DNA from: Dyella choica
GTDB taxonomy: Bacteria > Pseudomonadota > Gammaproteobacteria > Xanthomonadales > Rhodanobacteraceae
Length of the DNA stretch: 64,000 bases
Direction: 5' to 3'
NCBI RefSeq assembly: GCF_003977665.1
Contig: NZ_RYYV01000006.1
Location: 248,001-312,000 of the forward strand
The number at the start of each line of letters is the position of its first letter. The first letter of the stretch is position 1. The position numbers were made by a program, and so were the translations under genes. Shown here piece by piece: positions 23,566 through 39,419 of this stretch. The notes below the pieces were generated by a model, which saw nothing but the letters and a program-made list of their open reading frames with translations, was not told where the DNA came from and made no database searches.

Positions 23566-24804
23566 ATGCGCATCTCCACCGTCTGGACGTATCAACAGCA
23601 GCTCAGCACGATGCTGAACCAGCAGGCCACGCTGGCGCAGACCCAAAACGAGGTGAGCACCGGCCTCGCCATCAACGTGGCTTCGGACAATCCCACCGGT
23701 GCCGCGCAGGTCGTGGGGCTGAATCACATTCTTGCCCAGAACACGCAATACGCCAGCAACATCAACGCCGCCAATACGCGCTTGTCCACCGAATCCTCGA
23801 CGCTCACCACTGTCAGCAATTTGCTGAGCAGCGTGAATGACATCGGCCTGGGCGCCATTAACGGGGCCATGTCGTCCACCGACCTCAGCAACATGGCCAC
23901 GCAGCTCACGCAGTATCGCAACCAGCTCGTGCAGCTTGCCAACACCACCGACGGGAACGGCCAGGCGCTGTTTGCCGGCACCAGTACCACCACCGTGCCG
24001 TTCGTAACAAACAGCAGCAGTGGTGCGGTCACTTATGTCGGCAACGAGCAGCAGTCCTTCACCTCGATCGGCACCGGATTGCAGGTGGCCAGCAGCGACG
24101 CCGGCAGCGATATTTTCATGAACCTGGCCGCAGGCAACGGCTCTTTTGTTGCAAGTGCCAGCAGCAGCAACACCGGCACGCTGGTGGTGGGTTCGAACAG
24201 CGTCACCAATACTGCTGCATGGAGCGCCGCCACCGCGTCTGGACCGGTAAATGACACCATCACTTTCGGCGCCAACGGCAGTTACAGCGTGACCGACGCT
24301 GCTGGCAACCCCGTGACCGACAGCAGCGGCAATCCCATTGCGGGGACGTACACCGACGGCGGCAGCATCAGCTTCAACGGCGTCGCCATCAACATGAGCG
24401 GCACGCCGAAGGCTGGCGACACGGTCAAGCTGCAATCCGACAACACGTCCAACAATCAGGACGTCTTCACCACGCTCAACAACATGATCACCGCTTTGCA
24501 GAGCGGTGGCAGCTCGACCTCCATCACCAACACGCTGAACCGTCAGCTCGAATCACTCAACCAGGCGATGAACGCCGTTTCCACTGCGCAGGTCTCCGTG
24601 GGCAGCCGCATCGATACCCTGCAGCATCAAAGCACCAGCTATTCCGATCTCAACCTGACCTATAAGAGCGCGCTGTCGGACGTGCAGGACGTCGACATGG
24701 CCACCGCCATCAGCAATCTTTCGCTGCAATCCACCGCACTGCAGGCGTCACAACAGGTGTTTGCCAAGATCCAGGGCACCAGCCTGTTCGATTACCTACG
24801 CTGA
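23566..24804 (+). CDS. flgL: FlgL, hook-associated protein 3
   Basis: The 412-residue protein begins MRISTVWTYQQQLSTMLNQQ and has LNEVSTG-like and SDNPTGAAQV segments, and ends ALQASQQVFAKIQGTSLFDYL, the FlgL C-terminus. It forms the second junction protein before flagellin. A central domain (about 190-290) repeats the FITFGANGSYSVTDAAG type of module seen in FlgK. It follows flgK by 14 bp. Confidence 0.93.
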   Translation: MRISTVWTYQQQLSTMLNQQATLAQTQNEVSTGLAINVASDNPTGAAQVVGLNHILAQNTQYASNINAANTRLSTESSTLTTVSNLLSSVNDIGLGAINGAMSSTDLSNMATQLTQYRNQLVQLANTTDGNGQALFAGTSTTTVPFVTNSSSGAVTYVGNEQQSFTSIGTGLQVASSDAGSDIFMNLAAGNGSFVASASSSNTGTLVVGSNSVTNTAAWSAATASGPVNDTITFGANGSYSVTDAAGNPVTDSSGNPIAGTYTDGGSISFNGVAINMSGTPKAGDTVKLQSDNTSNNQDVFTTLNNMITALQSGGSSTSITNTLNRQLESLNQAMNAVSTAQVSVGSRIDTLQHQSTSYSDLNLTYKSALSDVQDVDMATAISNLSLQSTALQASQQVFAKIQGTSLFDYLR

Positions 24805-24844
24805 CGCTCGTGCGTGGCCGAACGCATCCGGAGTTTCTCTCATC

Positions 24845-25513
24845 ATGCAACAGACACCTGTCAATCAAATTCACAACCAGGATGTGCTCAATCTGATGCC
24901 GCTGGACCGGCGGCGCGTCGTAGAGATCGGATGCAGCTCCGGCGTGCTCGCCCGCGAGTACAAGAAGCGCAATCCGCACGCGCACTACGTGGGCGTGGAT
25001 ATCGTGCCCGAATACACCCAGATGGCGGCCGCCCATTGCGACGAGGTGCTTTCATTCGACATTGAATCGAAAGACAAGGACTTTCTCCGCGATCGCTTTC
25101 ATGCCGACTGCTGGGTTTTTGCCGATGTGCTGGAGCATCTGCGTGATCCGTGGCAGCTGCTGGCCAAGCTGCGCGAGATCATGCCTGCTGACGGCTGCCT
25201 GCTGGCCTGCGTCCCGAACGTGCAGCACTGGAGCATCCAGGCACGCTTGAGCTGCGGAGATTTCCGCTACGAACCAGCCGGCTTGCTGGACCGCACCCAC
25301 CTGCGCTGGTTTACCCGCGTCACCCTGCTGGAGATGTTCCAGCAAACGGGTTTCGGCATTGTCACCGGCATCACGCGCATGCTCAACAATTCCCATGGCG
25401 CGCAGTTCGCCCCTTACATCCGCGCCATGGCGCAGGCGGCCGGTGGGGATCCGGAGCAGGCCGTACAGGATGCGAACGTGTTCCAGTTTGTAGTGAAGGC
25501 CATCCCGGTCTGA
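24845..25513 (+). CDS. SAM-dependent methyltransferase, first of pair after flgL
   Basis: The 222-residue protein has the class I methyltransferase motif I VVEIGCSSGVLAREY (near residue 25), an acidic end of strand 2 in VGVDIVPEYTQMA, and FADVLEHLRDPWQLL, a feature of the UbiE/Methyltransf_11-type. The start at 24845 (MQQTPVNQIHNQD) lies 40 bp after flgL, so it is probably co-transcribed with it. The target is unknown. Together with the next gene and the giant glycosyltransferase it could modify flagellin or its glycan. The extended frame start at 24761 lies inside flgL and is rejected. Confidence 0.82.
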   Translation: MQQTPVNQIHNQDVLNLMPLDRRRVVEIGCSSGVLAREYKKRNPHAHYVGVDIVPEYTQMAAAHCDEVLSFDIESKDKDFLRDRFHADCWVFADVLEHLRDPWQLLAKLREIMPADGCLLACVPNVQHWSIQARLSCGDFRYEPAGLLDRTHLRWFTRVTLLEMFQQTGFGIVTGITRMLNNSHGAQFAPYIRAMAQAAGGDPEQAVQDANVFQFVVKAIPV

Positions 25514-25559: not shown

Positions 25560-26279
25560 ATGCTGCGGCAAGTTCTCAAAGACTATCAACAGATCGATTC
25601 CATCCACACGCAGCTGCTGCCCGCAGGTGATTCGGCGTCCCCGAAGGAGCTGATCTTCCACATCATGCAGGACAACGCCGCGGACGTCGAAGTGCTCGAC
25701 ATCGGCTTCGGCAAGGGGGGCTTGGGCGAATTGATCAAAAGCCATCCGGCCACCCGGCACTGGTCCGTCGACGGCGTGGACGGTTTCGAGGGCGCCTTCG
25801 CCAACCAGGCCCTGTTCGAACGCAGGATCTACCGCAACGCCTGGCACGGCCTGGCGCAAAGCATCCCTTCCGACCGCCTGGCCCAGTACAACATCATCTG
25901 CCTGCTCGACGTGATCGAGCACCTCAACGCGGAAACCGCGAAGTGGCTGCTGCGCACTCTGCTTACTGGCATGGGCAACGATTCCTTTCTCTTCATCAGC
26001 ACGCCGCTGTGGTTCTACCCCCAGCACAGCCAACAGAGCGGTGACCTGGAAGAACATTTGATCGGTGTGCCGGCCAGCTCCATGATGGCGTTGATCCCGA
26101 TGATGTATGCGGTCAATCCGCCGCTGATCGGCGGCTTCGTGCTCGGCAAGCGCAGCCTCGACTTCGTCGAATTCTTCCAGCCGACCACGGACAAGAATTT
26201 CTCCTACCAGCGCGGCACGATGCTGGCCAGTGCGACTGGCTTTCAGAACGTGCCGGGGAAACTGTTCAAGCTGACTTGA
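25560..26279 (+). CDS. SAM-dependent methyltransferase-like protein, second of pair
   Basis: The 239-residue protein contains motif I as VLDIGFGKGGLGELIK (near residue 45), an acidic residue in SVDGVDGFEGAF and a CLLDVIEHLNAETA segment, so it is a class I SAM methyltransferase by pattern. No target domain is recognisable. It begins 46 bp after the first methyltransferase on the same strand. Its place beside flgL and the absence of other modification genes here make flagellin or glycan methylation a reasonable guess, no more. Confidence 0.75.
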   Translation: MLRQVLKDYQQIDSIHTQLLPAGDSASPKELIFHIMQDNAADVEVLDIGFGKGGLGELIKSHPATRHWSVDGVDGFEGAFANQALFERRIYRNAWHGLAQSIPSDRLAQYNIICLLDVIEHLNAETAKWLLRTLLTGMGNDSFLFISTPLWFYPQHSQQSGDLEEHLIGVPASSMMALIPMMYAVNPPLIGGFVLGKRSLDFVEFFQPTTDKNFSYQRGTMLASATGFQNVPGKLFKLT

Positions 26280-26590: not shown

Positions 26591-28282
26591 ATGCGCTCGC
26601 TTAGTTGGTTGTGCTGCTGTTTGCTCTCCATGCTTTCAGTGCTGGTGATGGTTGGTCGCATCAGCGCCCAATCCTTGGATCATCCAGCCCCTGTTGCGCC
26701 GGTGGAAAATCCGTGCCCGCGTCCCGCGGCAGGCAGCGTAGTCGAAAGAGAGTCGGCGCTTTACGCCCGCAGCGGCGAATTGCGCGTTCGCTTTTCCTAT
26801 CAGAGCCGAAGGGACGAAGCGGGGCGCGTTCTGTATTGCTTCATGACGCCGGACGGCAAGCAGAATCCGACGTTGCATCTGCGCCCAGGCGATCACCTGC
26901 TAATCACCTTGACCAACAATCTGCCGGCAGGTTCGGGTGCCATGGCGATCAGCGGGCCGATCTGCGGTGCGGCCATCATGGACAGCAGCTCGGTCAATAT
27001 TCACTTCCATGGCGGCAACATCTCGCCCACCTGCCACCAGGACGAAGTGATCAAGACGATGGTCAATTCGGGGCAAACGTTTCGGTACGACATGAAGATC
27101 CCCGCCAACGAGCCTCCGGGACTGTACTGGTACCACACCCATATCCATGGCTTGTCGGAATCCATGCTCCAGGGTGGAGCGGCGGGGGCCATCGTGGTGG
27201 AGGGCATCGAAAACGTGCAGCCCGTCGTGGCTGGACTGCGCCAGCGTGTTCTGGTGGTGCGCGATCAACTCGTGCCAGGCGCGCCCAGTCCGGGCGGAGA
27301 TATCCCTTCCTGGGACGTATCGCTCAATTACGTACCGATTACCTCGCCCTCTGCCGAATCGCCGCACTTCGTGCCAGCCGTACTGTTGATGCAGGGGGGG
27401 GAGAAACAGTTCTGGCGCGTTGCCAATGCCTCGGCGGACACCATCCTGGACCTGCGCTACTTATGGGATGGAAAAGCGCAGACCATGCAGCTGGTGGCGC
27501 GAGACGGCGTGCCGATCGATTCGCAGGATGGCAAGCGTACGGGCGAGTCGATCGGGCTCGGGCACATCTTGCTGCCCCCGGCGGCGCGGGCCGAATTCAT
27601 CGTCGAGGCACCGCCGCAAGGCGTGAAGTTGGCGCAACTGGTTACGCAGAATATCGACACGGGGCCTTTGGGTGACAACGACCCCACGCGTCCCTTGGCA
27701 ACGATACGAACGGGGGATGCGTTCGCATTGCAAGCTGAGGCCGACGCTGCGGATCGCCTGCCGGCATTTAGCGGGGCGAGCACCGGTCAGCAGCGATTTG
27801 CCGGCTTGGCACAAGCCCCGTTGGCGAAGGTGCGGACCGTCTATTTCGATGAAATACAGCCCACGGCCTTCTTCATGGCGGTGGAGGGGCGGCCCAAGCA
27901 CGTCTTCGACCCCAGCCTGCCGCCGGACATCGTGGCCAGGCAGGGCACGGTGGAGCAATGGGTGATTCAGAACCGCACTATGGAAAACCACGAGTTCCAT
28001 ATTCACCAGATCCATTTCCTGATCGAATCGCAGGACAACTTCGAAATCAACGGCTCCCCCCAGCCTCCCGGCATCGCCGGCCAATACCTGGATATGGTGC
28101 AAGTGCCGTACTGGGACGGCAATCCGCAACATCCGTATCCCAGTGTCAAAGTGCGTATGGATTTCCGTGGGCCGGACGTGGGTGATTTCGTCTTTCATTG
28201 CCACATCCTCCAGCACGAGGATTTGGGCATGATGAATATCATTCGTGTGGTGCCGCGCGGTTCGCCTGGCGAGGGGCGCTAG
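26591..28282 (+). CDS. Multicopper oxidase, secreted
   Basis: The 563-residue precursor has a signal peptide (about 1-27, ending ISAQS). The four copper-binding clusters are intact: NIHFHGG (near 138), YWYHTHIHG (near 180), HEFHIHQIHF (near 467) and FHCHILQHEDLGMM (near 536), supplying the trinuclear site and the type 1 copper Cys-His pair with methionine. It would oxidise phenolic or metal substrates with reduction of O2 to water in the periplasm. CueO/CopA-type methionine-rich loops are not evident. It is an isolated gene inside the flagellar region. Confidence 0.88.
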   Translation: MRSLSWLCCCLLSMLSVLVMVGRISAQSLDHPAPVAPVENPCPRPAAGSVVERESALYARSGELRVRFSYQSRRDEAGRVLYCFMTPDGKQNPTLHLRPGDHLLITLTNNLPAGSGAMAISGPICGAAIMDSSSVNIHFHGGNISPTCHQDEVIKTMVNSGQTFRYDMKIPANEPPGLYWYHTHIHGLSESMLQGGAAGAIVVEGIENVQPVVAGLRQRVLVVRDQLVPGAPSPGGDIPSWDVSLNYVPITSPSAESPHFVPAVLLMQGGEKQFWRVANASADTILDLRYLWDGKAQTMQLVARDGVPIDSQDGKRTGESIGLGHILLPPAARAEFIVEAPPQGVKLAQLVTQNIDTGPLGDNDPTRPLATIRTGDAFALQAEADAADRLPAFSGASTGQQRFAGLAQAPLAKVRTVYFDEIQPTAFFMAVEGRPKHVFDPSLPPDIVARQGTVEQWVIQNRTMENHEFHIHQIHFLIESQDNFEINGSPQPPGIAGQYLDMVQVPYWDGNPQHPYPSVKVRMDFRGPDVGDFVFHCHILQHEDLGMMNIIRVVPRGSPGEGR

Positions 28283-28329
28283 CCGGCGGCAGATGGCTCG
28301 GAATGTGCTGCTGCCGGGTTTACAGAGAG

Positions 28330-29208
28330 TCACTTGGCCTCGGCTAGATAGCTCCATAAGGCCCGGGCGACCGGGCCGACGGGGCGCCCGCGCAGCCTTG
28401 CTGCGACGAGGTCGAGTTTCGAGCGCTTGAAATGGCGCCCTTCGAGCGAAATCAGCTTCCCTGTACGCAATTCCTTTTCCACCAGATGCAAGGGCATGTG
28501 TCCCCAACCCATGCCCTGCACGATCAATGCCTGCTTGGTGTGTTGGTCGGCTACTGTCCAACTGGGTGCGTCCTTGATCACGAAGTAGTCGCGTCCGGGC
28601 TGTCGCGCCGTGTCGCGAATGATCACCTGCACGTAGGCACGCATCTGCCCGGGCGTCAGATCACGAGTGACAGCTTCGGCAAGGAAGCCGGGCGCGGTCA
28701 CCGGCAGCAGGGTCACCGTGCCGAGGTCGACCCATTCGAAGCGCGCGTCGCTCTTGTCGATGTGATGAATGATCAGGTCGGCTTCCTCCGCCAACAGACG
28801 TTCCCAAGGGCCGCCGATCACCTCGAAATGCAAGTGCAAGCGGGTTTTTGGGTGAGCCTTGAAGAAGCGTTTCAGTCTGCGCAGTACTTCTTCCGTCGGC
28901 GTGAGGTCGCCAACTACCACGCGCAAGTCGGTTTCCTCGCCCTGGCTCAGCTGCAGCCCCAGGGTTTCCAGCGCAGCAGCCTCTCGCAGCACTGTGGCCG
29001 CCTGGCGGCGAAAAGCTTCTCCGGCCGGCGTGAGACCGACCCGGTATTGGCTGCGGTCGAGCAGGGCCACGCCAAGCCGCTGCTCCAGATTCTTCACCGC
29101 GGCATGGACGGCAGGATGGGTGCGATGAAGCTTCTCGGCAGCAGCCTGGAAACTGCCTTCGGCGATGACGGCATCGAGGCAGGCCAGCTCGTGCAGGGAG
29201 AAAACCAT
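28330..29208 (-). CDS. LysR-family transcriptional regulator
   Basis: The 292-residue protein has the LysR winged helix-turn-helix at 1-60 (CLDAVIAEGSFQAAAEKLH, then LEQRLGVALLDR) and a periplasmic-binding-protein-like effector domain to the end. It is divergent from the reductase gene (96 bp between starts), so it most likely controls that gene and the following YciI gene. The inducer is unknown. Confidence 0.9.
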   Translation of the reverse strand: MVFSLHELACLDAVIAEGSFQAAAEKLHRTHPAVHAAVKNLEQRLGVALLDRSQYRVGLTPAGEAFRRQAATVLREAAALETLGLQLSQGEETDLRVVVGDLTPTEEVLRRLKRFFKAHPKTRLHLHFEVIGGPWERLLAEEADLIIHHIDKSDARFEWVDLGTVTLLPVTAPGFLAEAVTRDLTPGQMRAYVQVIIRDTARQPGRDYFVIKDAPSWTVADQHTKQALIVQGMGWGHMPLHLVEKELRTGKLISLEGRHFKRSKLDLVAARLRGRPVGPVARALWSYLAEAK

Positions 29209-29304
29209 TGTCCGATCTCCTTACAGTGATTGGCTTGAATATTAAATTTCTTACGGAGGCTGCCAAGCCTAGCCTAAAACCTTCCAAGCAGAAGGAGGCA
29301 TGGC

Positions 29305-30288
29305 ATGAAGGCGATCGTGCGGCAGCAATACGGCGGACCGGAGCAGCTTTTGCTCGAAGAGGTGCCTGACCCGGTAGCGGGTTCGGGTGAGGTGCTGGTT
29401 CGCGTCAGAGCGTTCGGTATCAACCGCGCGGAACAGTATCTCCGGCGCGGCTTATGGGGTGAAGTTGCGCCCATTTCGGGCATCGAATGCGTTGGTGAAG
29501 TGGTGCATGACCCCAATGGTGGTTTGCTTGCCGCGCAGCGTGTATTTGCCTTGATGGGAGGCATGGGGCGAACGCGCAACGGTAGTTACGCCGAGCTCGT
29601 TGCCGTTCCCGCCCCCAATGTGGTGCCCATTCGCAGCACGCTCGATTGGGCCCAACTGGCGGCCATACCTGAGTCCTACGCAACAGCATGGAGCTGCCTG
29701 TTCGATAACCTGTCGCTGACGCGTGGCGACGTGATACTGATTCGTGGCGCCACCTCCGCGCTGGGATTGGCTGCACTCGATCTCGCTCGCTACGCACAAG
29801 CCAAGGTTGTCGCCACTGTACGCACGGCCGAGGGCGCACCGGCTGCACGAAATCACGGTGCCGATGAAGTGCTGGTTGATGGCAGCGAGCTGGAGAATGG
29901 GCTGAAGCACATCGCCCCGCATGGCGTCGATGCCGTGCTTGATCTGATCGGCACGGCCACCCTGCTGGAATCCTTGCGCCTGACCAAACGGGGTGGACGA
30001 GTGTGCGTGGCAGGCTTTCTGGGCGGCCATGAACCGATCGCTGCCTTCGACCCTTTGTTGCATTTGCCCAGTGGCCGGCATCTCAGCTTCTTCGGCAGCG
30101 CTTTTGTGTATGGCACGCCGGAATACCCGCTGACCGACATTCCCTTCCAACGGATCGTCGATCTGGTCGAGGCGGGCACGTTGCGCGCGAAGCCGGCGCG
30201 ATCGTTCGACCTGGAAGAAATCCAGCAAGCGCATCGGGTGCTGGATGAAGGAACGGCGGGCGGAAAGATGATCGTCCGCGTTCGCTGA
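29305..30288 (+). CDS. Zinc-independent MDR-family quinone reductase/alcohol dehydrogenase
   Basis: The 327-residue protein has the GroES-like N-terminus (MKAIVRQQYGGPEQL, VLVRVRAFGINRAEQYL) and a Rossmann fold with IRGATSALGLAALDLARY near residue 145 for NADPH. The zinc-binding cysteines of classical alcohol dehydrogenases are missing, as in the quinone oxidoreductase (QOR) group. The substrate is unknown. It is probably regulated by the divergent LysR gene and co-transcribed with the YciI gene 30 bp downstream. Confidence 0.88.
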   Translation: MKAIVRQQYGGPEQLLLEEVPDPVAGSGEVLVRVRAFGINRAEQYLRRGLWGEVAPISGIECVGEVVHDPNGGLLAAQRVFALMGGMGRTRNGSYAELVAVPAPNVVPIRSTLDWAQLAAIPESYATAWSCLFDNLSLTRGDVILIRGATSALGLAALDLARYAQAKVVATVRTAEGAPAARNHGADEVLVDGSELENGLKHIAPHGVDAVLDLIGTATLLESLRLTKRGGRVCVAGFLGGHEPIAAFDPLLHLPSGRHLSFFGSAFVYGTPEYPLTDIPFQRIVDLVEAGTLRAKPARSFDLEEIQQAHRVLDEGTAGGKMIVRVR

Positions 30289-30318
30289 AACGTTGCATTC
30301 CCTACGGAGAACTCGCTC

Positions 30319-30621
30319 ATGAAACACTTTCTTTTGGAAGGCAGGCATCTCGTACCGTTCGAGGAGCTCGCCGAGCTGGTGCCCGCTCATCATGCGTTTC
30401 TGCAGAAGGGCTATGACCAAGGGTATTTCCTGTTTTCCGGTCCGCAGGTGCCGGCGCACGGCGGTTTCCTGGTGGCGCGAGCCGCATCACGCGAGGAACT
30501 GGACGCCTTGCTGGCGGATGAGCCCTTCGTCCAGGCGAACAAGATGCACTTCAGCCGCATCGTCGAATTCGATGCGGCGCAGTGCCAACCCGTCCTGCAG
30601 CAATGGTTCAACGTTGCGTAG
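30319..30621 (+). CDS. YciI-family small protein
   Basis: The 100-residue protein shows the YciI dimeric ferredoxin-like fold pattern: HAFLQKGYDQGYFLFSGPQ with the conserved histidine, then FLVARAASREELDALLADEPF. Family members are small enzymes or binding proteins, often in oxidoreductase operons. It starts 30 bp after the reductase and is followed directly by a repeat pair. Confidence 0.85.
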   Translation: MKHFLLEGRHLVPFEELAELVPAHHAFLQKGYDQGYFLFSGPQVPAHGGFLVARAASREELDALLADEPFVQANKMHFSRIVEFDAAQCQPVLQQWFNVA

Positions 30622-30685
30622 GCTGGGATGACAATCCCAGCATCAGTCGCCCGTAATGAGAGCTGGGATTGTCATCCCAGCCTAC
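30618..30685. repeat. REP-type palindromic pair (family A), copy 3
   Basis: Inverted 24-bp units at 30618-30641 and 30662-30685. The first unit starts inside the last codons of the YciI gene, so the repeat overlaps the gene end by 4 bp. It separates this gene from the convergent AAA ATPase. Confidence 0.9.
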
Positions 30686-30701
30686 ATCGCCCGATGGACG
30701 C

Positions 30702-31868
30702 TTATCGCTCGGGCCAATACCAAGCCGGTTCATCCAGTTCTCGTTGCCCAATGATGCGAGTCTGGCTCAGCTCCTTTTCGAGCGAGATGCTATTGCAGGA
30801 AGGAAGGTCTTCGAGTGCAGCGATAAGCCGTGAAGCATGCGATATCACCCACACCTGGCTCTTCGCAGCAGCCTGCCCGATCAGGCGGGCCAGCGCTGGC
30901 AGAAGATCGGGATGCAGGCTGGTTTCCGGCTCGTTCAGCACCATCAGGGACGGTGGTCGCGGAGTGTGCAGCGCGGCGATCCACAGTAGGTAGCGCAGTG
31001 TTCCATCCGACAGCTCGCTGGCGGAAAGTGGACGCAACAAGCCATGCTGACCGAAGCTCAGGCCGAAGCGGCCGTCGCGCACTTCTACTTCAACCGATGC
31101 GCCGGGGAAGGCGTCTTCGACGGCCTCGTTCAGCGCTTCCCGATCGCCGATCTCGCGGATGGTCTGCCAGGCTGCCGCGAGGTCTCCGCCATCATGACTT
31201 AGTACTGGGGTGCGTGTGCCCAGTTGCGCCAAGCGTGCCGGTGCGTCCCGGTCCGAGCGGAAATGGTCGTAGAAACGCCAGCCGCGTATCGCCTCGCGCA
31301 TCGAAAGCACTTCCGGTGCGCGTTCGGGATCGGCCAGTTGTGTAAACATGCTTTCGAACGGGTTGAGATGCTTGGCCACGACGCGCCAGCCACGCCCTTC
31401 CTTGACCTTGGCCAGGGCGCCATGCCGGTCGACCAGCGCGTTCGATGAACGCAGGAAAGGTCCTGCCCAGATCGCCTCGCGCTTGATTTCCGGGTCGAGG
31501 CTGAATGCCGTAGGCGCATTGGAAGGTGCGGGGAGACCGAGGTCGATGGCATAGCCGTAGTCGTCGCCGGCAAAGCCAAGCCTGAGCGCAATCGGTTCCT
31601 GGCGCGGCCCGCCCTGCACCGGCACTTCGCCTTGCAACATCCGGCGCGAGATGCGTTCGGGGCCGGCCCACAGCGTTGAGGACAATCCGCCCTCTCGCGC
31701 CAGCGCGTTCACGACACCGCCATGTGCAGTTTCGGCAAGCAAGCGCAAGGCGCGGTAGAGATTCGACTTGCCGCTGCCGTTGGCGCCTGTGATCAGGTTC
31801 AATGGACCCAGCGGGAGGGTGAGCGATCGCAGGGAACGGTAGTTGGCTATCGCCAGTGTTGTCAGCAT
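30702..31868 (-). CDS. AAA-family ATPase (RecF/OLD-like single gene)
   Basis: The 388-residue protein has a Walker A GANGSGKSNLYRAL near residue 30 and a Walker B region VLNEPETSLHPDLLPAL near 315, with an ABC-type signature around ASELSDGTLRYLLWI. This is the SMC/RecF-like ABC-ATPase class (AAA_21 type). No nuclease or toprim domain is attached. The start at 31868 (MLTTLAIANYRSL) is the family-typical N-terminus; the frame runs on upstream to 31997 only because the family A repeat there is open. Function is unknown; such stand-alone ATPases can be parts of defence or repair systems, but no partner gene is next to it. Confidence 0.82.
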   Translation of the reverse strand: MLTTLAIANYRSLRSLTLPLGPLNLITGANGSGKSNLYRALRLLAETAHGGVVNALAREGGLSSTLWAGPERISRRMLQGEVPVQGGPRQEPIALRLGFAGDDYGYAIDLGLPAPSNAPTAFSLDPEIKREAIWAGPFLRSSNALVDRHGALAKVKEGRGWRVVAKHLNPFESMFTQLADPERAPEVLSMREAIRGWRFYDHFRSDRDAPARLAQLGTRTPVLSHDGGDLAAAWQTIREIGDREALNEAVEDAFPGASVEVEVRDGRFGLSFGQHGLLRPLSASELSDGTLRYLLWIAALHTPRPPSLMVLNEPETSLHPDLLPALARLIGQAAAKSQVWVISHASRLIAALEDLPSCNSISLEKELSQTRIIGQRELDEPAWYWPER

Positions 31869-32181
31869 GCGCTTTTCGTCCAAGCAAGGCAGCCGGAACG
31901 CGAATGAGTACATGAAGCAGGTTGTCAGGGCAAGCGTAGGCTGGGGTGACAATCCCAGCATCGCGGCTTGCACGTATGCCAATGCTGGGATTGGCAACCC
32001 GGCCTACGATTATCATCCCAGTCTACGCATTGTTCCCTCTGCACTTACATCGCTATGATGACGCGGCCGATGCGAACGCGAAGCGGGGGCGCACGGCGCA
32101 AGCCATCGGATGTCTTGCGAGCCAGCGTGCCCTTTATTCCGGCAGGAGCAGCCGCGACTTTTTACTCAATGGAGATGAATC
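31869..32181. other. 313-bp gap with repeats
   Basis: It lies between the divergent ATPase and YiaA-like genes. It contains the family A repeat pair at 31936-32007 and a further half unit at about 32012-32026. No gene-like frame remains after the repeat-derived frames are removed. Promoters for both genes should be here, but I could not define them. Confidence 0.6.
31936..32007. repeat. REP-type palindromic pair (family A), copy 4, diverged
   Basis: Units at 31936-31959 and 31984-32007 with several base changes, followed by an isolated half unit ATCATCCCAGTCTAC at 32012-32026, suggesting a decayed third unit. Confidence 0.85.
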
Positions 32182-32577
32182 ATGCAGGGTTCCGTACAGA
32201 AGCCGTCCTTCGCCTTTGTTGCCGCGTCCTGGGTGGCCCTGTTGGCCGGGGTCGTGGCCTTTCTTGTCGGGCTTTGGCATGCCGACATGCAGCTGAATGA
32301 AAAGGGCTACTACTTTGCGGTGCTGATGTACGGGCTGTTCGCAGCCATTTCCGTGCAAAAGAGTGTGCGCGACCGCCTTGAGGGCATTCCCGTCACCGCG
32401 ATCTACTACGGCCTGGCCTGGGTCTCGACGCTGATCGCCATCGCTTTGCTAGTGATAGGACTCTACAACGCCACTCTGTCCGCCAGCGAGAAGGGCTTCT
32501 ATGGCATGGCTTACGCATTGAGCCTGTTTGCTGCCATTGCCGTGCAGAAGAACACTCGCGACAGCCAGTTCGCATGA
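32182..32577 (+). CDS. YiaA/YiaB-family inner-membrane protein
   Basis: The 131-residue protein has four hydrophobic segments in two matching halves: [19 protein letters not shown] and [20 protein letters not shown], then [26 protein letters not shown] in outline and [19 protein letters not shown]. The repeated end AISVQK/AIAVQK is the YiaAB domain signature. Role in the cell is not established; it sits in the inner membrane. Single gene, divergent from the ATPase. Confidence 0.85.
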
Positions 32578-32640: not shown

Positions 32641-35600
32641 TCAGTTCGGCAACCATGCATCCCGCCAAGCCACCAGCTTTTCGCCCTCCAGCATCCAGTC
32701 CTTGCGCACTGCCTCGTGCAACGCATCGCCCGTCCTCGCCGTGGCATCCAGGTCGTCCAGGTGCATGCGGATCGCGTTGACCCAGTCCTTGTAGCGGTTC
32801 TTCACGCGTGTCACCGGCAGATCGCCTTGATAGGGGACGATGTCGGTGCAGATCACCGGGAAGCCGCAGGCGCCGTATTCGAGCAGGCGCAGGTTGCTCT
32901 TGCATTCGTTGAACGCGTTCTCTTCGAGCGGTGCCAGGGCGAGGTCCAGGTTCAGCGAGGCCAGCTTGCGCGGGTATTCCTCGATCGGCACGCCGGTGTG
33001 GAATTCGTGCACGTAAGGGCGCAGCTTGTCGGGGCACATGCCGAAGAACACCCATTCCACTTCGCCGGCCAGGTCGCGCACGACGTCGGCGATCAGTTCC
33101 AGGTCGCCGCGATGGCTGGAGCCGCCGCCCCAGCCGACGCGCGGTTTGCGGCCGACGCGCCGCTGTGCCTGCAGGCCACCCCACCAGTCCACCGGCAGGT
33201 GGTTCAGCACCACGCGGATGTCGGAGTGGAAGCCTTTGAATTCTTCCGCGAGTGAAGGGGTGGAGACGACGAAGCGGTCCATGGCCGATAGCGCGCGTCG
33301 CAGCGACTTGACCACATCCTTGGGCATGATGCCGTGGAAGGCGCTCTTCACCGGGATCTGCTGGATCAGGTCGTCCAGCTCGAACACCTTGAAAGCCTTG
33401 GAGTAGTCACGATAGCTTTCCAGTAGCTTGATCTGGTGTTCGTGGATCTGCCGCTGCATCACCAGTGAGGTGGGCTGGAAGCGTTCCATCGCCACCGGGG
33501 TCAGATGGACGCCGGCGATGAGGCCCTCGATCATGCCTTCGCGCTGCATGGAGGCGAACGGCTGGCGAATGCGGTAGTGGCCGCAGCCGTGCTCGTCGGC
33601 GGCGACACAGAACAGGCGCGGCCGGAGCGGGCTGGCGAAGGGTTGCCACGCCTTGCTGCGCATGGGGTCCAGTTCGAAGCCCGAGCCGTCGACGCTGAGG
33701 TTGGTGCTATAGGCGGGGTCGCGCGCAAGCAGCTTCAGCCACTTTCGGTACATCGCGCCTTGTTCGCCCTCGAAGCGTTTCTGCTTGGCCTCCTGGGCGG
33801 TCGTGTCGACCTTGGTCTGGCTGACGCTGCCCACGTGCATCAGGCGCGCATACGGCGTCCACACGGTCAGGTAGCCGGCTTGTTGCACTTTCAGGCATAG
33901 ATCGACGTCGTTGTAGGAAACCTTGAAATCCAGCTCGTCCAACCCGCCAACCTCGTCGTAGACGGACTTGCGGATCATCAGGCACGCGGCTGTCACCGCG
34001 GTGTAGTTCTGATCCACGCGCAGACGATGCATGTAGCCGTCCGCCTCCATCGCCAGGCCGATGAAAGGATGGTCAGCAGGGCCGCGCAAGCCCAGCACCA
34101 CACCACCGTGCTGAATGCGCCCATCGGGAAAATGCAGCTTGGCGCCTACGATACCGACCTCCGGACGCTGCGCATGATTGAGCAAGGCATCGATCCATTC
34201 GGCATGCAGTACGGCGGTGTCGTTGTTGAGCAGGATCAGGTATTCCCCCCGCGCCTGCGCTGCCGCGAAATTGTTGATGGCGGAATAATTGAACGGATGC
34301 GGATAGCGCAGTACGCGCAACTGCGCACTGTTGAGCCGTTCGATCCCGTCGAGATACGCGCAGGCTGCCGGCTCCGAGGTGTTGTTGTCGACGATCAGGA
34401 GCTCGTAGTTGAGGTAGCTGGTCCTGGACAGCAGGCTGTCGATCAGGCCGTTGAGCAGGGGCAACTGGTCCTTGGTCGGCACGATGATCGACACCAGCGG
34501 CTGCTGCGCGTGCTGGTACACCACACGGTTGAAACCGGGCAGGGCGCCGGCTTCCATGCGGTGCGGCACGCGAATGCGCGTCAAGTGTTGGGAGACGATC
34601 TCGGCGCTGTGCGCCTTGACCGTCTCCGACGCCAACCATTGGCCGTAAGGCAGTGCGGCACGGTGCATGACTTCGGCGATATGGCCGATGGACTGCAGTC
34701 CGTCCGTTTCGATCAGGCGGAACAGAAGGTCGTAGGGTGCCATGTCGCCATAGCGCGCCTGGAGATTGCCCAGTTCTATGCAGCACCGGCGCTGGAAGGC
34801 AAGCGCGCGGCCGGCATACGGATAGCTGCGCAGCAGGTCGAGATTGAAATCAGGCTTGAAGATCGGGTGCTCGAACGTGCCACGGCTATGGGCGTCTTCA
34901 TCGAAATAGACGGCGCGTAGATAGGGATCCGCCACCGCGCGCTCGGCCAGCAGCAGCAAGGCGGCAGGATGCAACAAGTCGCCTGCATGCAGCAGCTGGA
35001 TCCAGTCTGCGTCGCCGGCAGTAATTTCTCCAGGCAGGCGTTGCATGGGATCGTCGCCGCTGATCACGCTCAGTTGGTAATGCGGGTAATGCTGGGCTTC
35101 CAGGCTGGCCTGGGTCGCCTGCACGGCTTCCACGTCATTGCCGTGGTCGATCACGATCACCTGCATGCGTGGTGCGCCATGCTTCTCGATACGGTGCATG
35201 GCCTGCGCCACGGCCATATTGCTGAGCTGCAACTGCTCCTGCCATTGCTTGTAGAGATCCGAAGGCGGCAACGATATCAGCCATTCCGGCAGGATCTTCA
35301 GATGGCGGTCGGTGCGGTTCCAGCAACCGTCTTCATGGGTTTCGCGCGCAAAGGCTTCATTAAGGTTGCGGCCATGTCCGATCCATTCCGCCGAGGCATC
35401 GATCTGCAAGCGCTTGCACAACCAGGTAACGCGTTCGGCCGGCGAGGCCAGGCCGAGCAGGTCTTCCAGCCCGGCTTCATAGGCGATCTGCCACAGACCC
35501 ATGTAGACTGGAATCTGCTTCTCCACGGGTTGCCGCGCGCGCCATTCGCCGCCTCGGAAGGCGAGGGTCTCGCCATCGGCTTGCAGATAGATGTGGGCAG

Positions 35601-37629
35601 GCAGCGCGTCCAGCCATTCGCCGGGAATCTTGTCCTCGCCGTCGGCTTGCGCGTAGATCAGCGCGCTCCATTTGCGCAGCAGGCCTGCCAGCAGGTCGAT
35701 GCGCTGCTCGTGGATGGCCCTGCGCAGCAATACCAGCAGTGAGCGCCCCGCCGGGAGCAAGTAGGGTTCGTGCACGGGATCGAATGCGGACCCGTACCAG
35801 CTCAGTCCGGGCTGCATGGGGCGCGGCACGGCCTGGATGGCTCCTCCGCGCCGCACATATTCGGTGATCGTGTTGAGTGCCGGCACCCGATTGTCGGTGA
35901 AGCTGTGCGCGAGGACATCGGTGCGCAGCAGCGAAGGCGCGCCGTCGCGACTGGCGATCCATAGCCATCCCGGCGCATGTTCGCCCAGCGTGCCCGCTTG
36001 AGCGTGAAGCTCCCACTGCGTTGCCTCCTTGCCGGCTTCGCGCAGCAGCGGGCGCTGTGCGATCAGATCGTCTGGGCGCCATGCTGGGGTCGCTTGTGAC
36101 GCGTGGGCCGAGATCAACACTTCCGGCAGCAGCGCATCGGGAAACGCGAGCTTGATGTCGATCTGTGCAAGCCCCGTAGCGCGCAGCATGGCATCGACCT
36201 GCACGCGCGTGGGCAGATAGTGTTGAGCGGGAAAAGCCTGGCGATTGGGCGTGGCCAGGATCAGCGTGCCCTCCGGTTTCAGCGCGCTCGCCGCCATGGC
36301 AAGTGCTTCGCTCAAGGGGGTGCCGTGCGGCCAAGCCTCGGCGTAGTCGTCCGCTAGTGTCAACGAAACGATGTCGTAGTCCGGTTGCAGCGACAGCTCG
36401 CGCAAGCTGGCCTGAAACACGCGCACTTGCGGACAGTCGCGCAGTCGCGCCGCCGCCACCCTCGCCCAGTGCGGCGCAAATTCGACGGCATCCACGCTGC
36501 AGCCGCGCTCGGCCCACGCCAGGGTGGATACGCCGCCGCCGCAACCGATGTCCAGCACGCGGCAACCTTTGGGAACAGGATCGAGCATATGCAATGCATT
36601 GGCGCGCCTGGGCGAGAGATGCAGGGCGCTGGTGCGGCTGTGAATCTCTTTCGCCAGGGCTGCCGAATACAGGCTCGTGTCCGGCGCTTCACACACAACG
36701 CCGTGCAGGTGCGTAGCGGTGGCGTGGATGGCCTTGTGCGGGGGATGCTCGCGCAGCGGTGAATGCCACACGCCTTCCTGGTTGCGCATGAAGGTTTCCA
36801 GCGGCCACATCGGCGGCTGCACGCCCAGCTGTGCGATGACGCGCAGCACGACGTCGTCGTGCACTTCGTTGAGGACTTTTTCGTGCTGCAGAAACCAGTT
36901 CCAGTCCCTGGAACCCTTGCTGTCGGCCAGGGGCTTGGCGAATTTCAGCCGGCACTCCGCTTCGGACTTGCTCCAATAATGGTTGATGCGCAGTTTTTTC
37001 ACCGACACCTGCTCGGTGAAGGGGCCGTCGATAGAACGACCGTTTTCATCCACTGCGTGCGCGTTGTCCATATAAAGCATGAAGTGCGGATTGGTGCATG
37101 CGAGGACCTTGGCCGGCTGCACGATGCTCTTGATGTGCGCGTTCTCCGGGCGATAGCTGCCATCCGCCTGGGCGTAAGGAATACCGCCGTCGAGCGTACC
37201 GCGGCGCAGATAGTTCTCCAGTACGCCGCCCGGCGGCTTCGCCGTGTGACCGGCGGAACCGAACATCACCCAGTTGACGCCTACGCCGGGGTGGTCCGCA
37301 TACTCGGCCAGCACATCGGGCAAAAGCCTGGCGTCGGGCGCGAACAGGAACTCGTCCAGGTCGATGAAGGCGATCCAGTCGGCTTCGCTGCCGTGGGTCT
37401 TCAGGCAATGCTCGTAGGCCTGCAACTGCGCCGGGTGCCGCGGCCACTCGTGCAGCACCACTGTGCCGGAGGCCATATGCGGTTGCAGCGCGTCGAGGTA
37501 GGGATCGGAGCTATTGTTGTTGTACAGGTAGAAGCGTTCCACGCCCATGAGCTGGTGGAACTCGACCCATTCGCGCAGGTATGCGGCCTCGTCCTTGAAC
37601 ACGGCGCAAATGGCTAGTACGCAACGCAT
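32641..37629 (-). CDS. 1662-residue multi-domain glycosyltransferase/methyltransferase, likely flagellin glycan enzyme
   Basis: Modules in order: a GT92/GT2-like domain (1 to ~250) with AFIDLDEFLF near residue 90; a class I SAM methyltransferase (~345-480, motif I VLDIGCGGGVSTLAWA near 357); an unassigned segment (~490-800); a degraded GT2 (~820-1030, with YFDEDAHSRGTFEHPIFKP); a full GT2 (~1040-1290, VSIIVPTKDQLPLLNGLID, LLIVDNNTS, LLNNDTAVLHAEW); and a C-terminal GT1/GT4-type domain (~1335-1662, FNECKSNLRLLEYGACGFPV near 1590). No membrane segment, so it is cytoplasmic. It is divergent from fliC and has its own sigma-54 promoter, so it belongs to the flagellar regulon. Sugar and acceptor are unknown; flagellin glycosylation is inferred from position and regulation. 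Confidence 0.88.
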   Translation of the reverse strand: MRCVLAICAVFKDEAAYLREWVEFHQLMGVERFYLYNNNSSDPYLDALQPHMASGTVVLHEWPRHPAQLQAYEHCLKTHGSEADWIAFIDLDEFLFAPDARLLPDVLAEYADHPGVGVNWVMFGSAGHTAKPPGGVLENYLRRGTLDGGIPYAQADGSYRPENAHIKSIVQPAKVLACTNPHFMLYMDNAHAVDENGRSIDGPFTEQVSVKKLRINHYWSKSEAECRLKFAKPLADSKGSRDWNWFLQHEKVLNEVHDDVVLRVIAQLGVQPPMWPLETFMRNQEGVWHSPLREHPPHKAIHATATHLHGVVCEAPDTSLYSAALAKEIHSRTSALHLSPRRANALHMLDPVPKGCRVLDIGCGGGVSTLAWAERGCSVDAVEFAPHWARVAAARLRDCPQVRVFQASLRELSLQPDYDIVSLTLADDYAEAWPHGTPLSEALAMAASALKPEGTLILATPNRQAFPAQHYLPTRVQVDAMLRATGLAQIDIKLAFPDALLPEVLISAHASQATPAWRPDDLIAQRPLLREAGKEATQWELHAQAGTLGEHAPGWLWIASRDGAPSLLRTDVLAHSFTDNRVPALNTITEYVRRGGAIQAVPRPMQPGLSWYGSAFDPVHEPYLLPAGRSLLVLLRRAIHEQRIDLLAGLLRKWSALIYAQADGEDKIPGEWLDALPAHIYLQADGETLAFRGGEWRARQPVEKQIPVYMGLWQIAYEAGLEDLLGLASPAERVTWLCKRLQIDASAEWIGHGRNLNEAFARETHEDGCWNRTDRHLKILPEWLISLPPSDLYKQWQEQLQLSNMAVAQAMHRIEKHGAPRMQVIVIDHGNDVEAVQATQASLEAQHYPHYQLSVISGDDPMQRLPGEITAGDADWIQLLHAGDLLHPAALLLLAERAVADPYLRAVYFDEDAHSRGTFEHPIFKPDFNLDLLRSYPYAGRALAFQRRCCIELGNLQARYGDMAPYDLLFRLIETDGLQSIGHIAEVMHRAALPYGQWLASETVKAHSAEIVSQHLTRIRVPHRMEAGALPGFNRVVYQHAQQPLVSIIVPTKDQLPLLNGLIDSLLSRTSYLNYELLIVDNNTSEPAACAYLDGIERLNSAQLRVLRYPHPFNYSAINNFAAAQARGEYLILLNNDTAVLHAEWIDALLNHAQRPEVGIVGAKLHFPDGRIQHGGVVLGLRGPADHPFIGLAMEADGYMHRLRVDQNYTAVTAACLMIRKSVYDEVGGLDELDFKVSYNDVDLCLKVQQAGYLTVWTPYARLMHVGSVSQTKVDTTAQEAKQKRFEGEQGAMYRKWLKLLARDPAYSTNLSVDGSGFELDPMRSKAWQPFASPLRPRLFCVAADEHGCGHYRIRQPFASMQREGMIEGLIAGVHLTPVAMERFQPTSLVMQRQIHEHQIKLLESYRDYSKAFKVFELDDLIQQIPVKSAFHGIMPKDVVKSLRRALSAMDRFVVSTPSLAEEFKGFHSDIRVVLNHLPVDWWGGLQAQRRVGRKPRVGWGGGSSHRGDLELIADVVRDLAGEVEWVFFGMCPDKLRPYVHEFHTGVPIEEYPRKLASLNLDLALAPLEENAFNECKSNLRLLEYGACGFPVICTDIVPYQGDLPVTRVKNRYKDWVNAIRMHLDDLDATARTGDALHEAVRKDWMLEGEKLVAWRDAWLPN

Positions 37630-37721: not shown

Positions 37722-37737
37722 AGCAATGTTGGTGCCA
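37722..37737 (-). promoter_or_regulatory. sigma-54 promoter of the giant glycosyltransferase
   Basis: Read on the minus strand: TGGCACCAACATTGCT. GG and GC are 10 nt apart and both boxes match the RpoN consensus TGGCAC-N5-TTGCT exactly. The transcript would start near 37711, leaving an 80-nt leader. Confidence 0.82.
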
Positions 37738-37825: not shown

Positions 37826-37879
37826 CATTGCCTGCGGCGCTTTCGGTCCCTTTAGGGACCGAAAGCGCCGCAGGCAATG
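37826..37879. repeat. Perfect 25-bp inverted repeat with 4-nt loop
   Basis: Arms 37826-37850 and 37855-37879 are exact reverse complements around TTTA; the arm contains GCGGCGCTTTCGGTCCC. It lies between two divergent promoters, so it is not a simple terminator of either gene. No run of T follows. Confidence 0.92.
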
Positions 37880-38186: not shown

Positions 38187-39419
38187 ATGTCACTCGTTCT
38201 TAATACCAACATTGCTTCGCTGCAGGCCCAGAACAACTTGAGCAAGTCGGGCAGCGCGCTGAGCACCGCCACTCGCGACCTGTCCTCGGGTCTGAAGATC
38301 AACAGCGCAGCGGACAATGCCGCCGGCTTCGCGATTGCTTCGCGTTTCCAGACGCAGATCGGCGGCCTGGGCCAGGCCAGCACCAACGCCAGCGATGCCA
38401 TCAACCTGGCGCAGACCGCGGGTTCCGCGCTGAGCCAGATCACCTCCAACCTGCAGTCTATCCGTGACCTGGCCGTGCAGTCCGCCAACGGCACGTACCA
38501 GTCTTCCGACCGCGCCGCGATCGACACCTCGGTGCAGCAGTACCTGTCGGAAATCACCCGTATCGCCAACCAGACCAGCTTCAACGGCACCAACGTGTTG
38601 AACGGATCGGTCGGCCAGCTGTCGTTCCAGATCGGCTCCAACGTAGGCCAGCAGATCAACGTGAACCTCGGCCAGGGCGCCACCACCTCCCAGGTCGGCC
38701 AGATCTCGGAGATTTCCACCGCCAACATCAGTGGTGCGTTCGTCAACGGCAGCGGCGTGTCGGGCCAGTCGATCAGCTTGAGCGGCCTGAGCATCGAAGG
38801 CGCGGACGGCAAGAGCTACAGCCTCAGTGGCGCCAGCGCCAACAGCGCACAGGGCGTGGCGGATGCGATCAACGCAGCCGGTATTGCAGGTGTGAGTGCG
38901 GCCGTGAACAAGAACGGCGGTATCAACGTCTACTCCACTGGCGTACTTGCGGTCTCCGGTGCATCGGTGACGGGTGCTGCGGGCACAGCGTTCAACCTGA
39001 CCACGGGCGCGGTCGCGTTCGGCGCCAGCGGTGCCGGTTCAACGGCTACCGGTTTTGCGGCTACCGGTGCGGCCTACACCGACGGCTCGGTGATCACGTC
39101 CTCCGGTTCGCTGGCCGGCGGCGATGTTTTGACGGTGGACGATTCCAACAACCTGATCTCGCGCGTCGACGTGGCGCTGACCCAGGTGAGCAACTTCCAG
39201 AGCCAGCTGGGCGGCGTGCAGAACCGCTTCCAGTCGACGATCGCCACCTTGAGCGCACAGCAGACCAACCTGACGGCTTCGCAGAGCTCGATTCAGGACA
39301 CGGACTTCGCGGCAACCACCGCGCAGTTGAGCAAGTCGCAGGTGTTGCAACAGGCGGGTATCTCGGTGCTGGCCACCGCCAATGCCCAGCCGCAGCAGAT
39401 CCTCAAGCTGCTGGGTTAA
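38187..39419 (+). CDS. fliC: FliC, flagellin
   Basis: The 410-residue protein has the conserved flagellin ends: N-terminal VLNTNIASLQAQNNLSKSG and SGLKINSAADNAAGFAIA, C-terminal QSSIQDTDFAATTAQLSK and QAGISVLATANAQPQQILKLL. The D1 segment LQSIRDLAVQSANGTYQ corresponds to the usual TLR5-facing region. The variable middle (about 175-300) is rich in Ser, Thr, Gly and Ala, with many possible O-glycosylation sites. It is the only flagellin gene in the window and ends in a strong terminator, so it is transcribed alone. Confidence 0.96.
   Translation: MSLVLNTNIASLQAQNNLSKSGSALSTATRDLSSGLKINSAADNAAGFAIASRFQTQIGGLGQASTNASDAINLAQTAGSALSQITSNLQSIRDLAVQSANGTYQSSDRAAIDTSVQQYLSEITRIANQTSFNGTNVLNGSVGQLSFQIGSNVGQQINVNLGQGATTSQVGQISEISTANISGAFVNGSGVSGQSISLSGLSIEGADGKSYSLSGASANSAQGVADAINAAGIAGVSAAVNKNGGINVYSTGVLAVSGASVTGAAGTAFNLTTGAVAFGASGAGSTATGFAATGAAYTDGSVITSSGSLAGGDVLTVDDSNNLISRVDVALTQVSNFQSQLGGVQNRFQSTIATLSAQQTNLTASQSSIQDTDFAATTAQLSKSQVLQQAGISVLATANAQPQQILKLLG

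Follow-up and report, generated by a model that had tools for sequence, protein, structure and literature searches.

A six-module fusion protein beside fliC in Dyella choica: predicted flagellin glycosylation by an Fgt1-type core with a variable N-terminal front

The stretch of DNA analysed (hereafter the window) comprises 64,000 nucleotides of a contig of the soil bacterium Dyella choica (NZ_RYYV01000006.1, positions 248,001 to 312,000). An open reading frame on its minus strand, at 32641-37629, begins with ATG, has AGGAAA immediately 5′ of this codon (read by eye), contains no internal stop and encodes a protein of 1662 aa with the modules GT92, SAM methyltransferase, degenerate kinase-like domain, GT2a, GT2b and GT-B, in that order. 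Residues 1-1662 were found at full length in 14 of 16 Dyella genomes, its own included, at 74-100 % identity, and this confirms the giant intact ORF of the sequence-only reading. A chance ORF was ruled out by the full-length, stop-free frames in these 14 genomes. The C-terminal part only (789-1662) was present in G011, and neither part in G012.

The fusion gene and fliC are divergent and lie 557 bases apart. The plus-strand gene at 38187-39419 (410 aa) matches Flagellin_N in Pfam, in agreement with the earlier placement of the giant gene opposite fliC, and its product is the probable substrate; Ser and Thr make up 24 % of FliC residues 151-320 (alignment of 17 flagellins). An RpoN promoter had also been proposed, and a perfect sigma-54 site, TGGCACCAACATTGCT (TGGCACN5TTGCT), was located at 37722-37737 on the minus strand, 108 bases 5′ of the start codon of the fusion gene. 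Four perfect sigma-54 sites were observed in the window against 0.13 expected, a count reached by 0 of 100 shuffles, and the site lies 106-109 bases before the start in all ten Dyella-type loci checked (L003-L012). Ten other loci gave a slightly looser site in four cases (L017-L020), which overlaps the chosen start in L018, and none in six. The labels FlgK, FlgL, FliD, FliS, FliF and FleQ are our assumption, guided by position; Flagellin_N alone was tested by Pfam.

Two stand-alone methyltransferase-type genes are encoded on the plus strand. MTa (24761-25513), a SAM methyltransferase gene after flgL, encodes a product 28-34 % identical to fused methyltransferase modules that the core proteins of L023, L037, L038 and L042 contain. 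MTb (25560-26279), methyltransferase-like with Pfam matches below the cut-off, also occurs in L003, L009, L010 (cut by the end) and L011. MTa and MTb may share glycan work with the fusion protein. The MTa counterpart in L012 (15057-15725) is located directly 3′ of the giant gene. The genes that separate the giant gene from the flagellar genes (26591-32577) encode a multicopper oxidase, a LysR regulator, a zinc alcohol dehydrogenase, an AAA ATPase and YiaAB, and the spacing of flgL and the giant gene varies among Dyella loci. A near-perfect 54-base palindrome is present at 37826-37879, between the glycosyltransferase promoter and fliC; its relatives across the genome gave 71 alignments (both strands counted), some of them paired about 420 bases apart in the manner of a small mobile element.

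All six modules are encoded on the minus strand. Pfam matches above the cut-off confirmed the GT92, SAM methyltransferase and intact GT2 domains that had been recognised from the sequence. The GT92 module (36760-37629; residues ~1-290) matches PF01697 at residues 7-194 (E 9e-25; 88.1 bits against a cut-off of 23), and its DxDEF motif, which we take as the defining motif of GT92, is kept in 14 of 14 aligned Dyella-type proteins. The methyltransferase module (35950-36702; residues ~310-560) exceeds the cut-off of four Pfam models in region 351-465 (best E 2.8e-9) and has a (D/E)xGCGGG motif in 13 of the 14 proteins, that of L010 being one residue short. The kinase-like module (35260-35952; residues ~560-790), with a degenerate D....N / D.EW pattern, was identified by hhalign and alignments, and GT2a (34525-35172; residues ~820-1035), a GT-A fold without a canonical DxD, by the structural model, Foldseek and a motif table. 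GT2b (33640-34521; residues ~1037-1330) has an NNDT motif and matches PF00535 at residues 1047-1225 (E 9.1e-17). The GT-B module (32644-33624; residues ~1336-1662), with the motif CKSNLRLLEYG, was recognised from the model, Foldseek and motif. It corresponds to the GT1/GT4-type C-terminal domain proposed earlier, which is upheld as a GT-B fold by the model and by the relative L077, and falls short in Pfam, where the GT-B-like match of the Dyella protein at 1535-1596 is under the curated cut-off (15.5 against 25 bits). The assignment is made because PF13524 exceeds its cut-off in L077 (26.8 against 25 bits) and the fold is predicted. Invariant columns within the 14 aligned proteins amount to 32 % in the methyltransferase (the lowest of the six modules), 51 % in GT92 and 74 % in GT2b.

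Relatives were found by six peptide patterns and the best 80 of 239 were kept, with distant ones under-sampled. GT2b and GT-B share one ORF in all 80, joined by GT2a in 79. Counted from a point 30 residues N-terminal of GT2a through to the C-terminus, the core measures 863-893 aa in 69 non-Dyella relatives. Alignments A1 and A2 comprise 16 and 42 chosen rows, and the mean column identity of the core alignment (42 rows) is 63 %. A core tree built by a quick method groups Dyella with Rhodanobacter (SH-aLRT 100). Residues 790-1662 were well modelled by AlphaFold (pLDDT 91.9, pTM 0.86) as two GT-A domains followed by one of GT-B type, in line with the glycosyltransferase part of the earlier domain reading. 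The best Foldseek matches of this model were the tandem GT-A polymerases K4CP (E 2.6e-16) and heparosan synthase 2 (E 1.8e-15), the next included polypeptide GalNAc-transferases, and GlgM, a GT-B enzyme, was matched over 401 columns. GT2a had been called a degraded GT2. The canonical DxD is absent as described: the position reads AGD in 26 of the 42 rows, AGE in five, GGD, NGV and AGV in two each, and five single others. Since Asp comes first in none of the 42, the change is family-wide, in a well-predicted GT-A domain, and decay particular to the Dyella gene was ruled out.

A segment of about 300 residues had been left without assignment, and at residues ~560-790 it indeed has no Pfam match and no PDB profile match; profile comparison now points to a kinase-like domain. 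The segment aligns with a domain of L013 and L033 located after their methyltransferase. A search of 274 genomes of the class with the L033 domain returned eight loci, six of which were aligned with L013 and L033 (8 rows; L100 and L102 were excluded as motif-less). D432, N437, D450, E452 and W453 (L033 numbering) are invariant in this alignment. The strict D....N / D.EW pattern is present in four of the eight loci and in L033, in looser form in L098 and L101, and in neither L100 nor L102; in L103 the motif is DLHPGN. We take it to be of the aminoglycoside-kinase type, the kinase label of the family coming from this likeness, and Pfam detected no kinase family even in relatives with an intact kinase-like motif. 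Compared by hhalign with the kinase-like part, the Dyella segment without its methyltransferase tail scored 96.0 % (E 4.3e-9, a single pair), against at most 1.3 % for four control domains. The AlphaFold model of residues 470-860 was poor (pLDDT 57.5) and gave no Foldseek match at E 0.001, the best being Ret kinase (E 0.078), followed by other kinases and LysR-type domains.

The segment is labelled kinase-like because of the motif pattern, the profile homology and the published case of Klebsiella O7, in which an unannotated 223-residue domain after the methyltransferase is a kinase (PMC11231755). All 14 Dyella-type proteins retain the first Asp of the motif, three retain the Asn and none retains the second Asp; the second Asp is present in all eight aligned members of the methyltransferase-kinase-like family. 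A long coiled coil was not predicted in models of residues 470-1662, where the longest helix has 27 residues (470-860 being of low confidence). The kinase-less WbdD of E. coli O8 is described as methylating sugar hydroxyls directly (PMC3482155). This precedent and the loss of the second catalytic Asp are the grounds on which direct O-methylation is proposed for the Dyella protein, and by sequence it would be likelier than methyl-phosphate capping.

Relatives differ in the N-terminal module, and the core of about 870 residues is constant. When the sequence N-terminal to the core was scanned with Pfam in 28 proteins, 13 had one or two GT2 copies, four had RgpF (rhamnan synthesis), accompanied in one of them by a GT4-like part, one had RgpF plus a methyltransferase, two had a GT4-like part, two had a methyltransferase and four had an unrecognised front; the remaining two were a methyltransferase-kinase-like front (L033) and a GT92-methyltransferase-kinase-like front (L013). 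RgpF modules are fused to the core in L022, L023, L035, L036 and L061, and the front of the core protein in G011, a Dyella genome lacking the full-length form, is a GT2 (L107). A GT92 profile built from Dyella matched only L013 among the ORFs of L013-L082. L013, from Pseudomonas toyotomiensis, carries GT92, methyltransferase, kinase-like, GT2a, GT2b and GT-B modules in the Dyella order at 41 % identity; the domain order, earlier regarded as unfamiliar, thus recurs outside the genus. The core tree nests Dyella in a Rhodanobacteraceae clade (SH-aLRT 100), and the other members of this clade that were scanned carry different fronts; L013 is placed with L033 among Pseudomonas (SH-aLRT 99). In the Dyella line, the L013 line or both, the front therefore has a history different from that of the core.

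Flagellar genes were detected by blastp with the window proteins in the loci of 78 of the best 80 of 239 relatives, and a FliC match in 51 of these 80; the two exceptions are L004, on a 5.9-kb contig, and L022. Across 78 genomes of the family, 12 of the 48 with flagellin gave a near-complete GT2b-GT-B match and none of the 30 flagellin-less ones did (Fisher p 0.0024, uncorrected for kinship), and 11 further genomes of the family, some of them flagellin-less, match part of GT2b only. As 36 of the 48 flagellin-bearing genomes are without the full core, flagella do not need the enzyme. G009 has a shorter second copy beside its full-length one. This second core protein (L106, 9245-13381; 1378 aa) has a GT4-like front and lies on a separate contig; the window flagellar proteins have no match in the 19 kb around it, and it may therefore be a core member that does not act on flagellin. 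The rmlC gene was found in 16 of 16 Dyella genomes, among them G012, which has no enzyme. ORFs resembling GT2a-GT2b (37-40 % identity) are located 6-9 kb from rmlC and away from flagellar genes in three Dyella genomes (G004:C8:446304, G007:C9:555756 and G011:C11:309517). The GT2 pair consequently has relatives in probable LPS loci, and seems common to flagellin and polysaccharide synthesis.

Among the nearest known systems is Fgt1 of Pseudomonas syringae / P. amygdali pv. tabaci, with which the Dyella protein shares a GT2a-GT2b-GT-B core encoded between flgL and fliC. At L077 (Pseudomonas amygdali) the order is flgL, an ORF of 1191 aa, an ORF of 1001 aa and fliC, and the two ORFs were taken as Fgt1 and Fgt2 by species and place alone. 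The Fgt1-type ORF is 40-52 % identical to the Dyella protein across its modules; it has an N-terminal GT2 and an Fgt2-like ORF next to it, and its GT2b Asp is lost, whereas the Dyella protein has the GT92-methyltransferase-kinase-like front and an intact GT2b motif, without an Fgt2-like ORF at its loci. According to the published accounts, Fgt1 moves rhamnose onto Ser (PMC3927599), flagellin of fgt1 mutants is unglycosylated (PMC3402453, PMC12915359) and that of an fgt2 mutant is partly glycosylated (PMC12915359). Terminal modified viosamine is reported to restrict rhamnose elongation in P. syringae, and a vioM mutant retains the unmethylated terminal sugar (PMC3927599), so in that organism the sugar and not the methyl group is the cap. 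By analogy with this terminal sugar, the GT92 sugar could be the cap in Dyella.

Other published proteins resemble the fusion protein in part. FgtA (PA1091) of PAO1, compared by description only, likewise joins a flagellin glycosyltransferase to a second activity in a single gene, and its mutant has unglycosylated flagellin; it differs in that the partner is a phosphotransferase and the methyltransferase gene is separate (PMC11833859). The front half appears to resemble O-antigen chain-capping enzymes. ORF6(O7) of Klebsiella O7 is described as a methyltransferase-kinase with two rhamnosyl GT2 modules, joined to the kinase part through a coiled coil, that terminates and builds the chain (PMC11231755). 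In this protein and in E. coli O9a WbdD a methyltransferase is followed by a kinase domain (PMC11231755, PMC3482155); at the corresponding place the Dyella protein has the putative kinase-like segment. ORF6(O7) and WbdD, compared by description only, have an active kinase and a coiled-coil ruler; in the Dyella protein a kinase Asp is lost, a long coiled coil is not predicted in residues 470-1662 and the locus is flagellar. Enterobacterial flagellin glycosylation islands encode fusions of a glycosyltransferase with a methyltransferase domain in one protein (GT41, GT2-30), mostly of another glycosyltransferase family, and the portion of that account available mentions no GT92 or kinase-like module (PMC4875605). 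A ten-gene glycosylation island is reported in Xanthomonas oryzae (PMC8657755). Among the matches listed in a literature search on the domain combination, none describes the Dyella protein, judged by title and the start of the abstract. Within the literature searched, the kind of protein is known; a front cassette that includes a degenerate kinase-like domain seems new, as does the module-exchange pattern.

Flagellin glycosylation by the fusion protein, already suggested by the sequence-only reading, is a well-supported prediction from the homology of the core to the Fgt1-type ORF, the locus, the promoter and the co-occurrence with flagellin, and synthesis of a whole methylated oligosaccharide by the one enzyme is plausible. 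We consider it probable that the protein belongs to the Fgt1 kind of flagellin O-glycosyltransferase and carries a finishing cassette of its own at the N-terminus, acting as follows. Under sigma-54 flagellar control, the protein would meet FliC in the cytoplasm, and GT-B would attach the first sugar to Ser/Thr in the exposed middle of FliC; this sugar would most likely be L-rhamnose, with dTDP-rhamnose as the donor. GT2b would then add the next residue or residues, with GT2a as a non-catalytic GT-A partner, and GT92 a further sugar. Growth would stop when the methyltransferase O-methylates the chain end; the kinase-like domain, its phosphorylation activity presumably lost, may serve as a scaffold or gate.

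The assignment of the attaching step draws on the pattern of conservation in the core. Of 83 core rows, 78 carry the CKSNLRLLEYG motif of GT-B unaltered, four deviate by single changes and one deviates more strongly. In GT2b, 51 of the best 80 of 239 loci retain the Asp of the NND motif and 29 have lost it, the Fgt1-type ORF of L077 among the latter. An Fgt2-like ORF (~970-1000 aa, with GT2b and no GT-B match) accompanies 23 of the 29 Asp-less loci and none of the 51 Asp-keeping loci; it adjoins the Fgt1-type ORF in L071, L077 and L079 and lies about 5 kb from it in L066. Six Asp-less loci, some on short contigs, have no Fgt2-like ORF, and at Dyella-type loci, where the Asp is kept, none was found. 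A stricter NND cut gives 23 of 35 against 0 of 45 loci (Fisher p 1.2e-11), but all 23 Fgt2-bearing loci belong to one Pseudomonas clade of 27 rows, so they may go back to a single event and the p value is not evidence of many. Since the GT-B motif is kept almost everywhere and GT-B is absent from the Fgt2-like partner, GT-B is proposed as the attaching domain; on the simplest reading of these sequences it would attach the first sugar, and GT2b, or Fgt2 where GT2b has decayed, would extend. An unlikely alternative is that GT2b (or GT92) makes the bond to flagellin, GT-B extends and the methyltransferase modifies an inner sugar without capping. It is consistent with the intact GT2b motif in Dyella, a mean identity of 63.3 % for GT2b against 61.2 % for GT-B in 32 non-Dyella rows, the polypeptide GalNAc-transferases among the Foldseek GT-A matches and the P. 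syringae vioM mutant, by which methylation need not end a chain (PMC3927599). It conflicts with the L077 Fgt1-type ORF, which is without the GT2b Asp, yet fgt1 mutants are reported to lose all glycan (PMC3402453, PMC12915359), and with the Fgt2-like ORFs, which have GT2b and no GT-B match, fgt2 mutants losing only part (PMC12915359). In the L077 Fgt1-type ORF, the N-terminal GT2 looks intact, and this domain could be the one that links sugar to flagellin instead of GT-B.

Two further readings question the target and the activity of the front. That the enzyme serves LPS or another surface polysaccharide, its proximity to fliC being an accident of gene order, is very improbable: flagellar genes accompany nearly all relatives, the flagellar-type promoter recurs in all ten Dyella-type loci and the near-complete core is absent from all 30 flagellin-less genomes, as against a methyltransferase-kinase-GT2 order like that of an O-antigen terminator (PMC11231755), a donor pathway common with LPS and the GT2a-GT2b-related ORFs near rmlC in three Dyella genomes. 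The absence of the catalytic Asp from the kinase-like domain in all 14 proteins, the low conservation of the methyltransferase and the shortened SAM motif of L010 would fit a relic N-terminal half, with GT92 and/or the methyltransferase inactive and the C-terminal core alone at work; the DxDEF of GT92 in all 14 proteins and the open frame in all 14 genomes carrying the gene argue against such a relic, and it too is given little credence.

On the preferred reading, an Fgt1-kind enzyme with a finishing cassette, a wider proposal can be made, tentatively. In many proteobacteria, flagellin glycans may be built by one polypeptide with a fixed C-terminal core that attaches and extends and a freely swapped N-terminal cassette that finishes, a module swap giving a new flagellar sugar coat; the Dyella cassette would derive from methyltransferase-kinase chain terminators, its kinase having become a non-catalytic gate, and would bring chain-length termination into protein O-glycosylation. 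Mutants of fgt1 and pa1091 are known, and a domain-by-domain dissection is absent from the literature covered, as far as its available portions go. If the proposal is true, there would be a testable assignment of the domain that joins sugar to protein in a widespread family, and O-antigen chain capping would be linked with the finishing of flagellin glycans. The diversity of flagellar glycans would then be readable largely from one gene, the core telling that flagellin is decorated and the N-terminal module how.
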